From the NCBI RefSeq assembly GCF_021044685.1, contig NZ_CP088014.1:3210001-3274000 (forward strand): a stretch of 64,000 nucleotides of DNA, in the 5' to 3' direction. Each line of letters starts with the position of its first letter. The stretch's first letter is position 1. This DNA comes from Bradyrhizobium daqingense (GTDB taxonomy: Bacteria > Pseudomonadota > Alphaproteobacteria > Rhizobiales > Xanthobacteraceae). The notes beneath the pieces are model-generated. The model saw only the letters and a list, made by a program, of their open reading frames with translations, made no database searches and was not told the origin of the DNA. This document shows, piece after piece, positions 11,866 to 62,718 of the stretch. Position numbers and translations under genes: made by a program.

Positions 11866-14280
11866 TCAGTCGCCGGCTTCGGCCGGCGTGTTGCCGCCGG
11901 CGCTGTTCGGCCAGACCCAGCCCTGAACCTCGGGCATGTCCTCGCCGTGCTCGCGGACATAGCGCGAGTGTTCGATCAGCTTGTCGCGGAACTGCTGCTT
12001 CACCTGTGCTGCCTTCGTCGCGAGGCCCGGCACGCGCTCGATTGCCTCGATGGCGAGATGATAGCGGTCGAGCTTGTTTAGCACGACCATGTCGAACGGC
12101 GTCGTCGTGGTGCCTTCCTCGATAAAGCCGCGCACATGCATGCCGGCATGGTTGGTGCGGTTATAGGTCAGCCGGTGAATGAGGTAAGGGTAGCCATGAT
12201 AGGCGAAGATGACGGGCTTGTCCGCTGTGAACAGGCCGTCGAAGTCACGGTCGGAGAGGCCGTGCGGATGCTGTTCCCGGGGTTGCAGCGTCATTAGATC
12301 GACGACGTTGACGACGCGGATCTTCAGGTCAGGCAGCGCCTTGCGCAGGAGGTCGACGGCGGCGAGCGTCTCCAATGTGGGCACGTCGCCGGCGCAGGCC
12401 ATCACCACGTCGGGCTCTGCATTTGCATCCTCCGTGCCGGCCCAGCTCCAGATGCCGATCCCGGCATCGCAATGCGTCGCCGCATCCTGCATCGACAACC
12501 ATTGCGGCGCCGGCTGCTTGCCGGCGACGATGACGTTGATGCGGTTATAGGTGCGCAGGCAGTGATCGGCGATCCACAGCAGCGTATTGGCGTCCGGCGG
12601 GAAATAGATGCGGACGATGTCGGCCTTCTTGTTGGCGACGAGGTCGACGAAGCCGGGGTCCTGATGGCTGAAGCCGTTATGGTCCTGGCGCCAGACATGC
12701 GACGTGAGCAGGTAATTGAGTGAGGCGATCGGGCGGCGCCACGGCAACTCGCGTGTCACCTTCAGCCATTTGGCGTGCTGGTTGAACATGGAATCGACGA
12801 TGTGGATGAAGGCCTCGTAGCAGGAGAAGAAGCCGTGTCTGCCGGTGAGCAGATAGCCCTCGAGCCAGCCCTGGCAGAGATGCTCGCTGAGAACCTCCAT
12901 CACGCGGCCGTCCTGCGCGAGATGAACGTCGTAAGGTTCGGTCGGCTCCATCCAGACGCGTTCGGTGGCCTCGAACACCGCGTCCAGCCGGTTTGACGCG
13001 GTCTCGTCCGGACCCATGATGCGGAAGTTGCGTTCCTTTGCATTGAGGCGGATGACGTCGCGCAGGAATTTGCCGAGCTCGCGCGTGGCTTCGGCGATGA
13101 CGCTGCCGGGCTGCGGCACCTCCACGGCGAAGCTGCGGAAGTCCGGCAGCTTCAGCTCCTTCTTGAGGAGACCGCCATTGGCGTGCGGATTGGCGCCCAT
13201 CCGCCGCTGGCCGTCGGGTGCCAGCGCCTGAAGCTCGGGAATGAGTGCACCGTTGTCATCGAACAGCTTGTCCGGCTCGTAGCTGCGCATCCAGTCTTCG
13301 AGCACCTTGAGGTGCGCAGGGTTGTCGCGGCAGCCTGAAACGGGAACCTGGTGAGCGCGCCAAAAGCCTTCGACCTTCTTGCCGTCGACCTCCTTCGGCC
13401 CGGTCCAGCCCTTGGGGCTGCGCAGCACGATCATCGGCCAGCGCGGCCGCTCGATCGTCTTGCGCCCGTCGCGGGCGTGCTGCTGGATCGAGCGGATGCT
13501 GGCGAGTGCGACGTCGAGCGCATCGGCCATGGTCTGGTGCATCAATCTGGGATCGTCGCCTTCGACGAACAGCGGCTCATGGCCGAACCCGCGGAAGAGG
13601 TCGCGGATCTCCTCGTCCCGCATCCGCCCGAGCACGGTCGGGTTGGCGATCTTGTAGCCGTTGAGATGCAGGATCGGCAGCACCGCACCGTCATGCGCAG
13701 GGTTGAGGAACTTGTTGGAGTGCCAGGACGCAGCTAACGGGCCGGTCTCCGCCTCGCCGTCGCCGACGACGCAGGCAACGATCAGATCAGGATCGTCGAA
13801 TGCGGCCCCATAGGCGTGAACCAGCGCGTAGCCGAGTTCGCCGCCTTCATGGATCGAGCCGGGCGTCTCCGGAGCGGCGTGGCTCGGAATGCCGCCGGGG
13901 AAGGAGAACTGCCTGAACAGCTTGCGCATTCCGTCCGCATCGCGGGCGATGTCGGGATAGATCTCGCTGTAGCTGCCTTCGAGATAGGTGTTGGCGACCA
14001 TGCCCGGGCCGCCATGGCCGGGGCCGCAGACCTAGATCACGCTGATGTCCAACGCACGGATCACGCGATTGAGATGGGCATAGATGAAGTTCAAGCCGGG
14101 CGTCGTGCCCCAATGGCCGAGCAAACGCGGCTTGATATGCGCGGGCCGCAGCGGCTCGCGCAGCAGGGGATTGTCGAGCAGGTAGATTTGCCCGACGGAA
14201 AGGTAGTTCGCAGCGCGCCAATAGCGATCGAGCAGATCGAGGTCGTTGCTCGCCGCTCGCGATTGTTGTTGATTTGTCAT
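11866..14280 (-). pseudogene. xfp: xylulose-5-phosphate/fructose-6-phosphate phosphoketolase with in-frame TAG
   Basis: Spans 804 codons, the full length of bacterial phosphoketolase, but a TAG codon at 14032-14034 interrupts it after 82 residues. The frame reads ISVI[14 protein letters not shown]. The residue at that position in this family is normally Tyr, and TAC to TAG is one base. The downstream part keeps the thiamine-diphosphate enzyme features, including [16 protein letters not shown] and the C-terminal [13 protein letters not shown] block. The intact enzyme is cytosolic and forms acetyl phosphate from xylulose-5-P or fructose-6-P. A new start after the stop (for example ATG 14001) would lack the conserved N-terminus. 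Either a recent nonsense mutation or a sequencing error; no other defects are seen. Confidence 0.85.
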
Positions 14281-14451: not shown

Positions 14452-14483
14452 GTTCTTGATTTGTTCTGGACGCGTGCTATCTT
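14452..14483 (+). promoter_or_regulatory. LexA (SOS) box and promoter of the radical SAM gene
   Basis: GTTC (14452-14455), seven bases, GTTC (14463-14466) is a perfect match to the alphaproteobacterial LexA site GTTC-N7-GTTC. It overlaps a -35-like TTGATT (14456-14461), with TATCTT (14478-14483) as -10 after 16 bases. LexA bound here would block RNA polymerase. The -10 is only 6 bases from the ATG at 14490, so the transcript may be almost leaderless. Confidence 0.8.
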
Positions 14484-14489
14484 CGCGGC

Positions 14490-15665
14490 ATGAGTCCAGC
14501 ATCCTCTCATGCTCTCAAGCACCCGCCGGTCAAGGCGCCCTCCGAGCCGGCGGGTGCGGACTCTGACTTACCGGAGGACTTTCCAGAACTTGGCGTCGCC
14601 ATCGGCCGCGCGCGCCGGCGCGGGCGGGGTGCGCAGTCCAACGCCAGCGGCCGTTACGAGGCCGAGGCGCGGGTCGCCTTCGACGATGGCTGGCAGAGTC
14701 TCGAGGAGCTGCCGCCGTTCAAGACCAGCGTCGGCGTCGACACCTCGCGCAAGGTGATCACCCGCAACGATTCCCCCGATATCGGCTTCGACCGCTCGAT
14801 CAATCCCTATCGCGGCTGCGAGCACGGCTGCGTTTATTGCTTCGCGCGGCCGACCCACGCCTATCTCGGCCTGTCGCCCGGGCTCGACTTCGAGTCGAAA
14901 CTGTTCGCCAAGCCCGATGCGCCGACGCTGCTCGAGAAGGAGCTCGCCGCGTCCAGCTATGAGCCGCGCATGATTGCGATCGGCACCAACACCGATCCCT
15001 ATCAGCCGATCGAGCGCGAGCGGAAGATCATGCGAGGCATCCTCGAAGTGCTGGAGCGCGCCGGCCATCCCGTCGGCATCGTCACCAAATCGGCGCTGGT
15101 AGTGCGCGATATCGACATTCTTTCGCGGATGGCCAAGCGCAATCTCGCCAAGGTCGCCATCTCCGTCACTACGCTCGATCCGAAGCTCGCACGCACCATG
15201 GAGCCGCGCGCCTCGACGCCGCCGAAGCGGCTGGAGGCGCTGAAGCAGCTCTCTGAGGCCGGCATTCCGACGACGGTGATGGTCGCGCCGGTGATCCCCG
15301 CGCTGAACGATTCCGAGATCGAGCGCATCCTCGATGCCGCCGCCCATGCCGGGGTCAAGGAAGCTGCTTACGTGCTGCTGCGGCTGCCGCTGGAGGTGCG
15401 CGATCTCTTCCGCGAATGGCTGATGGCGAACTATCCGGATCGCTATCGGCACGTCTTCACGCTGATCCGCGACATGCGCGGCGGCCGCGACTACGATGCG
15501 AAATGGGGCGAGCGGATGAAGGGAACCGGCCCAATGGCCTGGACCATCGGCCGCCGCTTCGAGATCGCCTGCGACAGGCTCGGCCTCAACAAGCGCCGCT
15601 CCAGGCTGACGACGGATCACTTCGCGCGGCCGAAGCGGAACGGTGATCAGCTCAGCCTGTTCTGA
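14490..15665 (+). CDS. PA0069-family radical SAM protein
   Basis: 391 aa. The radical SAM cluster ligands are in RGCEHGCVYC: Cys110, Cys114 and Cys117. Flanking blocks FARPTHAYLGLSPGLDFE, IGTNTDPYQP and VTKSALVVRD are characteristic of the PA0069/Rv2578c group, which is distantly related to spore photoproduct lyase. The reaction is not established. The N-terminal 60 residues are basic and low complexity. The gene is monocistronic and preceded by a perfect LexA box, which suggests a DNA-damage-inducible role. Start ATG at 14490 lies directly after the promoter; no good Shine-Dalgarno is visible. Confidence 0.9.
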   Translation: MSPASSHALKHPPVKAPSEPAGADSDLPEDFPELGVAIGRARRRGRGAQSNASGRYEAEARVAFDDGWQSLEELPPFKTSVGVDTSRKVITRNDSPDIGFDRSINPYRGCEHGCVYCFARPTHAYLGLSPGLDFESKLFAKPDAPTLLEKELAASSYEPRMIAIGTNTDPYQPIERERKIMRGILEVLERAGHPVGIVTKSALVVRDIDILSRMAKRNLAKVAISVTTLDPKLARTMEPRASTPPKRLEALKQLSEAGIPTTVMVAPVIPALNDSEIERILDAAAHAGVKEAAYVLLRLPLEVRDLFREWLMANYPDRYRHVFTLIRDMRGGRDYDAKWGERMKGTGPMAWTIGRRFEIACDRLGLNKRRSRLTTDHFARPKRNGDQLSLF

Positions 15666-15688: not shown

Positions 15689-16144
15689 ATGGCCAAGAAA
15701 CTCCCCGTGCCGGTGCCGCGGCTCACCGTCATCACGTTAGGTGTGAGCGACATCCGCGCCAGCATCGCTTTTTACGACGCGCTCGGTTTTTCACGCCGGC
15801 TGAAGGCAACCGGTGACGCCGTCGCCTTCTACGATACCGGCGGCCCGGTGCTTGCCCTGTTTCCCTGGGATCAGCTTGCGGCCGATGCCACCTTGCCGGA
15901 CAAGCCGCGGCCGCAGGCCTTCCGCGGCATGACGCTCGCCTGGAATTGCGCAACGCGCGAGGAGGTCGACACCGTGTTGGCCTTCGCGGTCAGCAAGGGA
16001 GCGAGGCTGCTGAAGGCCGCGGGTGAGACCGATTACGGCGGCTATTGCGGCTATTTTGCCGATCCGGACGGCCATGTCTGGGAGGCCGTGGTCGCTCCCG
16101 GCATCGAGGTCGGTGAAGACCGACGGGTGCATCTGGCGGCGTAG
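15689..16144 (+). CDS. VOC (glyoxalase/bleomycin-resistance) family protein
   Basis: 151 aa. Two beta-alpha-beta-beta-beta units: the first begins [25 protein letters not shown], the second ends [12 protein letters not shown], both diagnostic of the vicinal oxygen chelate fold. The family includes glyoxalase I, dioxygenases and drug-binding proteins; here no metal ligand set is distinctive enough to name a substrate. Sits 23 bases after the radical SAM gene and may be cotranscribed with it, with its own AGAAGAGG ribosome site before ATG 15689. Confidence 0.88.
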
Positions 16145-16217
16145 GGCCAGCCTGAATAGCGGGAATTATCTCGGGTTCCCGGTTGCGCCGGCCGGGCAGC
16201 TTGCGCACGATCCCGGC

Positions 16218-17054
16218 ATGATTCGGGACAAGTCTGCCAAGAAGCCGGCCAGGGGTGCGCCAGAGAAGGGCACACCAGCGAAGGATGCTACGCCCGGCAA
16301 GGCGGCCAAAGCTCCTGCCGGCAAGAAGGGCATCATCGCCATCGCGCCGCCGAGCTTCCGCCGCGAGCGCGCGCTGATCAAGCGCGGCGTCTGGCCGGTC
16401 GCCGGTTGCGACGAGGCCGGCCGCGGCCCGCTCGCCGGCCCCGTGGTGGCGGCGGCGGTGATCCTCGATCCCGACCGTATCCCGCGCGGCATCGACGATT
16501 CCAAGCGGCTGACCGCCGAGGAGCGCGAAAAATTGTTCGACAAGATCTGCGCCACCGCGCAGGTCTCTGTCGCCGTCGCCTCGCCCTCGCGAATAGACCG
16601 CGACAATATCCTGCGTGCCTCGTTGTGGGCGCTCAAGCGCGCGGTGGTGGCTTTGCCCGAACAGCCCCGGCACGTGTTCGTCGACGGCCGCGATCGGCTC
16701 GATACCGAATGCGACTGCGAGGCGGTGATCGGCGGCGACGGCATCGTGTCGTCGATCGCGGCGGCATCCATCGTCGCCAAGGTCACCCGCGACCGTCTGA
16801 TGTGCGCGCTGGCACAGGACTGCCCCGGCTACGGCTTCGAGCAACACAAGGGCTACGCCGTCCCCGAGCATCTCGACGCCCTCGACCGTCTCGGCCCCTC
16901 CATCCACCACCGCAGCTTCTTCGCCCCCGTCGCCGCCGCTCGCGCCAAGCACATGCCGTGGACGGTCGAGCCGGTGCAGGACCTGTTCACGGTGACCGAG
17001 GTCGAGGTGCAGGTGGAGGCGGCCGTGGAGATCAACGCGACGGCAAATCTCTAG
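16218..17054 (+). CDS. rnhB: ribonuclease HII
   Basis: 278 aa. The catalytic domain starts near residue 58 with [23 protein letters not shown]; Asp65 and Glu66 are the first catalytic pair, and the later DGRD and [10 protein letters not shown] blocks are conserved. It removes ribonucleotides and RNA primers from DNA-RNA hybrids. The first 40 residues are a Lys/Ala/Pro-rich tail absent from compact RNase HII enzymes. The frame extends upstream to 16023 without conserved content; ATG 16218 is chosen because it begins the basic tail. Confidence 0.94.
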
Positions 17055-61923: not shown

Positions 61924-61947
61924 ATATAGACGGCCTGATATAGACGG
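61924..61947 (+). promoter_or_regulatory. tandem ATATAGACGG elements upstream of SRAP
   Basis: ATATAGACGG occurs at 61924-61933 and 61938-61947, 14 bases apart. They lie just before the ATG at 61954 and look like duplicated -10-type sequences. Confidence 0.35.
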
Positions 61948-61953
61948 TTTGGG

Positions 61954-62718
61954 ATGTGTGGACGCTTCGTCATAACTTCGGCCCCCGCGGCTTTGCGGCA
62001 ACTGTTCGGCTATGTCGAGCAGCCGAATTTCCCGCCTCGGTACAATGTCGCCCCGACACAACCGATTCCCGTCGTGCTGGTCGAGAACGGCGCGCGGCAT
62101 TTCCGCCTGATGCGATGGGGCCTGTTGCCGACCTGGGTCAAGGATCCCCGCGGGTTCACGCTCCTCATCAACGCCCGCTCCGAGACGATTCTCGAGAAGC
62201 CCGCCTTCAAAAAGGCGATCCGGCGGCGGCGCGGCCTGATCCCCGCGGACGGCTATTACGAATGGAAGACGGAGGGCGGCCGCAAGCAGCCGTTCTTCAT
62301 CCACCGCGCCGACGGCGAGCCGCTCGGTTTCGCTGCGGTGTTCGAGACCTGGATGGGGCCGAACGGCGAAGAGCTCGACACGGTTGCGATCGTCACGGCG
62401 GCGGCGGGCGAGGATCTCGCCGCGCTGCATGACCGCGTTCCCGTCACCATCAGCCCGCGCGATTTCGAGCGCTGGCTCGACATCCGCGGCGACGAGGTCG
62501 ATGCGATCCTGCCGCTGCTGACCGCCCCGCGCATCGGCGAGTTCGCCTGGCACCCTGTCTCCACCCGCGTCAACCGCGTAGCCAACGACGACGAGCAGCT
62601 GGCGTTGCCGATCAGCGCCGAGGAGATGGAGGCGGAGGCCGTGGCGGTCAAGCCGAAGAAGGTGGTGCGGAAGGTTACTGCGAGTTCGGCGGATGACGGG
62701 CAGGGGTCGTTGTTTTAG
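61954..62718 (+). CDS. SOS response-associated peptidase / abasic-site protein (SRAP)
   Basis: 254 aa. MCGRF gives the catalytic Cys2, which forms a thiazolidine link to abasic sites in single-stranded DNA after Met removal. NARSET and LHDRVPVTI are the other family blocks. A basic C-terminal tail (KPKKVVRKVTA) follows the domain. No LexA box is seen in its promoter. Confidence 0.93.
   Translation: MCGRFVITSAPAALRQLFGYVEQPNFPPRYNVAPTQPIPVVLVENGARHFRLMRWGLLPTWVKDPRGFTLLINARSETILEKPAFKKAIRRRRGLIPADGYYEWKTEGGRKQPFFIHRADGEPLGFAAVFETWMGPNGEELDTVAIVTAAAGEDLAALHDRVPVTISPRDFERWLDIRGDEVDAILPLLTAPRIGEFAWHPVSTRVNRVANDDEQLALPISAEEMEAEAVAVKPKKVVRKVTASSADDGQGSLF

Follow-up and report, generated by a model that had tools for sequence, protein, structure and literature searches.

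The association of radical SAM genes with the SOS response is not new. In the part of Sanchez-Alberola et al. (2012; PMC3323433) on which we draw, LexA boxes are predicted upstream of alpha- and betaproteobacterial genes called splB (COG1533), a radical SAM gene annotated as a photolyase and found there with two divergent LexA motifs. The same part of the article considers the protein a spore photoproduct lyase with a role in photoreactivation, and it does not discuss a clamp-type tail, a missing cysteine or a leaderless promoter. SOS regulation of SplB/COG1533 is also listed for Bacteroidetes, among other groups (PMC8565304). The species of the 2012 study include S. meliloti and Paracoccus denitrificans (PMC3323433, same part), and the genes of these two species that we examined are PA0069-like and have perfect boxes. 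Furthermore, the spore photoproduct lyase-like family TIGR03886 was absent from all 101 genomes examined in the order to which our genome belongs. On these two grounds, the splB gene of 2012 most likely belongs to the PA0069 family, and the SOS link of this family is prior knowledge under another name. Hence, a sequence-only reading of the window (the whole 64-kb stretch of DNA that was analyzed), according to which a link to DNA damage would give the family a testable role, stands as far as the LexA-type box is concerned, but the link is not new. PA0069 itself reportedly belongs to the LexA regulon of P. aeruginosa, in a ciprofloxacin transcriptome of 2006. Our search of the literature, with incomplete open-access coverage, found no article on PA0069 with LexA or on Rv2578c with DNA damage.

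The closest structurally described system is the spore photoproduct lyase (Geobacillus, PDB 4FHC and mutants). It has in common with the PA0069-family protein of the window a radical SAM core with the CX3CX2C motif, a tyrosine before the last cluster cysteine, and VTK and EP motifs. In contrast to the lyase, the PA0069 protein has no counterpart of Cys140 and ends in a clamp-type C-terminus, and its gene appears to be under SOS control whereas the lyase is under sporulation control. The nearest sister family is Rv2578c (NF038135, Actinomycetota), with a score of 226.1 bits, below the cut-off of 430. In the small sample of this family that we examined, the four members end in QESLF, QLTLL, QEPLF, and QLRLL, and GAAC-N4-GTTC precedes two of their genes. 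Finally, bacterial beta-clamp-binding proteins have the consensus QL(S/D)LF, usually at the C-terminus (PMC9690074). The window protein carries this exact pentapeptide at its extreme C-terminus, and its binding to the clamp is predicted.

The LexA-type box and the promoter of the radical SAM gene

The box GTTCTTGATTTGTTC (14452..14466, + strand) lies 23 nt upstream of the ATG (14490) of the radical SAM gene and is an exact GTTC-N7-GTTC, as had been claimed from the sequence. Such a bare match is no proof, since the loose motif, with its eight fixed bases, was found once in the window for 1.67 expected occurrences and is not enriched genome-wide (143 occurrences vs 181 for the reversed control). 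We thus dropped the counts of the loose motif as evidence, the observed values not being above expectation in either the window or the genome. A refined motif, GTTC-N4-WWT-GTTC, occurs 21 times in the genome and only once as the reversed control, and the site in the window is one of these 21. The decisive evidence for the box is its conservation upstream of orthologues rather than the match alone.

We searched for conserved LexA boxes, a check that the sequence-only reading had proposed, upstream of orthologues. These came from 90 genomes of the order, with one per genus in most cases, from 39 genomes of the remaining orders of the class, and from 21 genomes belonging to other classes. Perfect GTTC-N7-GTTC boxes were found in 87 of the 90, 34 of the 39, and none of the 21, respectively, whereas Markov-simulated upstream regions gave means of 1.1 (order) and 0.5 (other orders). 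For one of the three exceptions within the order, the contig ends shortly upstream. Among 80 named alphaproteobacterial loci, a set that overlaps in lineage with the first one, the box was present in 76 and the reversed control in none. PA0069 genes from 52 families keep the box, in most cases at a constant spacing from the ATG. Inside the box the most frequent base of each column averages 89%, in comparison with about 33-38% in the flanking columns; the eight GTTC positions are at 100% by selection, and the unselected positions of the spacer are also high, up to 97%. Given the low values of the flanks, the signal does not reflect general sequence similarity. The comparison thus upholds the idea of a LexA-type site on the radical SAM gene, and the box tracks PA0069 and not its neighbours. 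The PA0069-family gene is almost certainly under LexA control, judging from this pattern.

Outside the class, the gamma/beta LexA box CTGT-N8-ACAG is found instead in 12 of the 21 orthologues (0.08 expected), and it is absent upstream of the other 9. In Aeromonas caviae, for example, the box CTGTATATATAAACAG is located 15 nt before the ATG of the orthologue. Two LexA-type boxes that are unrelated in sequence thus precede this gene in different lineages, and without selection for SOS control this would be difficult to account for. The box, its conservation and the LexA-type boxes of the other classes can be read in the sequences, and from them we infer the binding of LexA. The Xanthomonas-type box TTAG-N6-TACTA occurs in just one of 150 upstream regions. 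One locus (L182) has no LexA box upstream of its radical SAM gene. A long palindrome, TGATCAATATAGTACGATCGTTCTATATTGATCA, lies immediately ahead of the start there and might serve as operator for a different regulator.

The box overlaps a putative promoter. A -35-like TTGATT (14456..14461, + strand) lies within it, the TTG being present in about 80% of the orthologous boxes, and a -10-like TATCTT (14478..14483, + strand) corresponds to a TAnnnT found at a fixed distance from the ATG in orthologues. This pair, separated by 16 nt, had been called good, which is not the case in terms of consensus: it matches 8 of 12 positions, i.e., it is weak, and a strict sigma-70 scan of the promoter gave no match. 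However, the TTG and TAnnnT positions recur in orthologues, with a fixed spacing from the ATG, and the promoter reading is thus partly right. The distance between box and ATG is 23-25 nt in 53 alphaproteobacterial orthologues, and the TAnnnT ends about 6 nt 5' of the ATG. With a -10-like element so close, the transcript is most naturally read as starting at the ATG or next to it. The leaderless translation previously raised as a possibility is thus plausible, and we predict a leaderless start for the radical SAM transcript. The fixed distance from box to ATG and the place of the TAnnnT support leaderless expression as a trait of the family.

Family, fold and C-terminal tail of the radical SAM protein

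The radical SAM gene (14490..15665, + strand; Radical_SAM PF04055) encodes a protein of 391 aa whose close named relatives are from Bradyrhizobium. The protein matches the NF033668 profile (rSAM_PA0069) over model positions 1-348 of 348 with 582.9 bits, above the cut-off of 360, which bears out its earlier assignment to the PA0069 family. Proteins of this family occur in about 90% of the sampled genomes of the order and are found across the phylum. The motif of the iron-sulphur cluster, CX3CX2C (C110, C114, and C117; 14817..14840, + strand), is invariant in 150 sequences.

We compared the AlphaFold model of the protein (pLDDT 86, pTM 0.85) with known structures. The six best PDB matches given by Foldseek are all spore photoproduct lyases (E about 1e-8 to 1e-7), with a moderate similarity (TM 0.42-0.54, about 16% identity), and they are followed, at weaker E-values, by RiPP maturases, NifB, and lipoyl synthase. 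A library of viral structures returned matches to general radical SAM proteins and nothing more specific. Searches for solved relatives by sequence, with phmmer and with profiles, gave none that was convincing, and the resemblance to spore photoproduct lyase was found by fold comparison only. The window protein has no match at E 0.001 to the spore photoproduct lyase family models, and only 3 of 35 members of the PA0069 family match TIGR04070 (spore photoproduct lyase), weakly (about 1e-4).

We then looked for the counterpart of the catalytic Cys140 of the lyase. The full-length profile alignment with hhalign is reliable over residues 196-269 only, i.e., the half with VTK...EP...AP. Hence, the position was placed by spacing and not by superposition, using as anchors a conserved Asp and the Lys of VTK, which are 31 residues apart in both proteins. 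It corresponds to T166 (14985..14987, + strand) and, placed in this way, is occupied by T, A, I, G, S, or V in the 150 sequences, but never by Cys. None of the cysteines outside the cluster is conserved in these sequences, the highest frequency being 26%. The protein thus has a lyase-like fold yet lacks a defining feature of the lyase, and the distant kinship suggested by the sequence-only reading holds for the fold but does not extend to the catalytic cysteine.

The last residues before the stop form a QLSLF pentapeptide (15648..15662, + strand), a predicted beta-sliding-clamp-binding motif. Q387 is found in 149 and L390 in 148 of the 150 sequences, which makes them about as conserved as the cysteines of the cluster. 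Tails of the form QxxL[FLI] are present in 144 of the 150 sequences, vs 8.5 after shuffling, and QLSLF is their commonest form. The exceptions include QLSLGL, QMALDL, and QMRLAF, which fit the hexapeptide form of the clamp-binding motif. The linker preceding the motif varies in length among orthologues. In the AlphaFold model, the tail has a pLDDT of about 54, with a short helix in part of it, and it is probably flexible. The tail and the absence of the lyase cysteine are seen in the sequences; that the protein binds the beta clamp through QLSLF is what we infer, and we regard it as likely. A motif this short might, in principle, be invariant for a different reason. Our searches, with incomplete open-access coverage, found no literature joining a clamp-binding motif with radical SAM proteins, and the C-terminal clamp-type tail seems to be a new point in the searchable literature.

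Among the 176 open reading frames of the window with at least 150 aa, just one other ends in a clamp-type tail. This frame (61939-62718, + strand) ends in QGSLF and reads as a member of SRAP/YedK, the SOS-associated peptidase family, an assignment made by eye from the sequence. A different radical SAM protein (GCAFGCAYC), encoded on a Gemmatirosa plasmid, ends in QLSLGI, a clamp motif of the hexapeptide type.

A model of SOS-induced repair and its alternatives

With moderate confidence, we favour a model in which the radical SAM enzyme is induced by SOS and tethered to the clamp, and repairs or modifies the DNA of stalled forks through a chemistry different from that of the classical lyase. 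LexA bound to the GTTC-N7-GTTC box, over the -35 region, would repress the radical SAM gene. RecA-driven cleavage would remove LexA and allow the synthesis of a leaderless or nearly leaderless transcript, which would probably read on towards rnhB. The enzyme, with its core resembling that of spore photoproduct lyase, would be tethered to the beta sliding clamp by the flexible tail and delivered by it to stalled or gapped forks. The target of its 5'-deoxyadenosyl radical would then be a damaged base or a DNA adduct of a related kind. That DNA is the substrate seems fairly probable.

Each part of this proposal has alternatives. The one closest to the current annotations is a true spore photoproduct lyase (SplB), which would reverse 5-thyminyl-5,6-dihydrothymine, SOS induction thus raising UV repair. 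It agrees with the closest solved fold, with the motifs common to both proteins (CX3CX2C with the preceding Tyr, VTK, and EP), and with the name splB used in the consulted part of PMC3323433. Yet the position of the hydrogen-donor Cys140 never holds a Cys in the 150 sequences, and the lyase models fail to match the window protein at E 0.001, TIGR04070 reaching only 3 of 35 relatives. Spore photoproduct is moreover a minor lesion in vegetative DNA, and we find this reading improbable. One might also imagine an SOS- and clamp-linked enzyme whose substrate is not a lesion but a fork protein, a molecule of the nucleotide pool, or RNA. Sequence cannot reveal a substrate, and the fold also resembles those of RiPP maturases, NifB, and lipoyl synthase. 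However, spore photoproduct lyases occupy the first to sixth ranks, and DNA is favoured by the clamp tag and the SOS control, to which the rnhB neighbourhood can be added; such a substrate is possible, if rather doubtful.

The C-terminal QxxLF could be a structural motif or bind another partner instead of the clamp, given that it is short and that part of the tail forms a short helix in the model. The low confidence of the tail, the variable linker, and the exchange between pentapeptide and hexapeptide clamp forms argue against this, as does the reading of the sole other long frame of the window with such a tail as an SRAP/YedK-type DNA-repair protein. We thus see another role of the tail as unlikely. 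As for the box, a chance match has to be considered, given an expectation of 1.67 loose-motif sites over 64 kb, as has a role at the divergent phosphoketolase gene (xfp). Both ideas are hardly credible, as PA0069 genes of 52 families retain the box at a constant spacing from the ATG. We also discarded xfp as its target because this gene adjoins PA0069 in only 3 of 80 loci and has an in-frame stop here.

The near-invariant clamp tag and an SOS control that operates through more than one LexA motif narrow the search for the function of the PA0069 family to DNA damage at forks. The labels SplB, spore photoproduct lyase, or photolyase given to such genes probably indicate the wrong chemistry. More tentatively, PA0069 and Rv2578c could make up a widespread class of SOS-controlled, clamp-tethered radical SAM repair enzymes, acting on an unnamed fork lesion without the cysteine of spore photoproduct lyase and often co-expressed with RNase HII. 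If the repair model favoured above is right, direct repair by radical SAM enzymes would form a general part of the SOS response rather than a peculiarity of spores.

Neighbouring genes and other putative LexA sites of the genome

A glyoxalase/VOC-family gene (15689..16144, + strand; PF00903) is located 23 nt downstream of the radical SAM gene and is possibly co-transcribed with it. It adjoins the radical SAM gene in just 10 of the 80 named loci. It is followed by rnhB, encoding ribonuclease HII (16161..17054, + strand, start codon uncertain; NF000595, 229.8 bits). In 60 of 77 named loci, rnhB lies downstream on the same strand, often directly. Its expression from the SOS promoter by read-through is possible, and the neighbourhood suggests a ribonucleotide repair linked to SOS. 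On the other side, xfp (- strand) is broken by an in-frame TAG (14032-14034) after ...RALDISVI. Three close relatives (L205, L206, and L209) have no stop at this position, and xfp may be a pseudogene here or be affected by a sequencing error.

The genome encodes a single LexA, and a GTTC-N7-GTTC lies some 100 nt upstream of the lexA gene itself. The refined motif is also found before recA, ssb, and an imuA-like gene, and it occurs at yifB/comM as well. One refined box (L047, C1:7602787-7602801) is located 97 nt before the JetA gene of a Wadjet system, which suggests SOS control of this anti-plasmid system. Two others (L025, C1:1300329, and L043, C1:5689414) precede, by about 40 nt, two paralogues that carry a FAN1 HTH domain. 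Boxes were also found about 20-50 nt before genes of small coiled-coil-like proteins (L036, L038, and L039; C1:3301695, 4470246, and 5069723). One of these proteins was checked and had no NCBIfam match. Two of them start with MDNRINEIRR, and they are possible new SOS small proteins.
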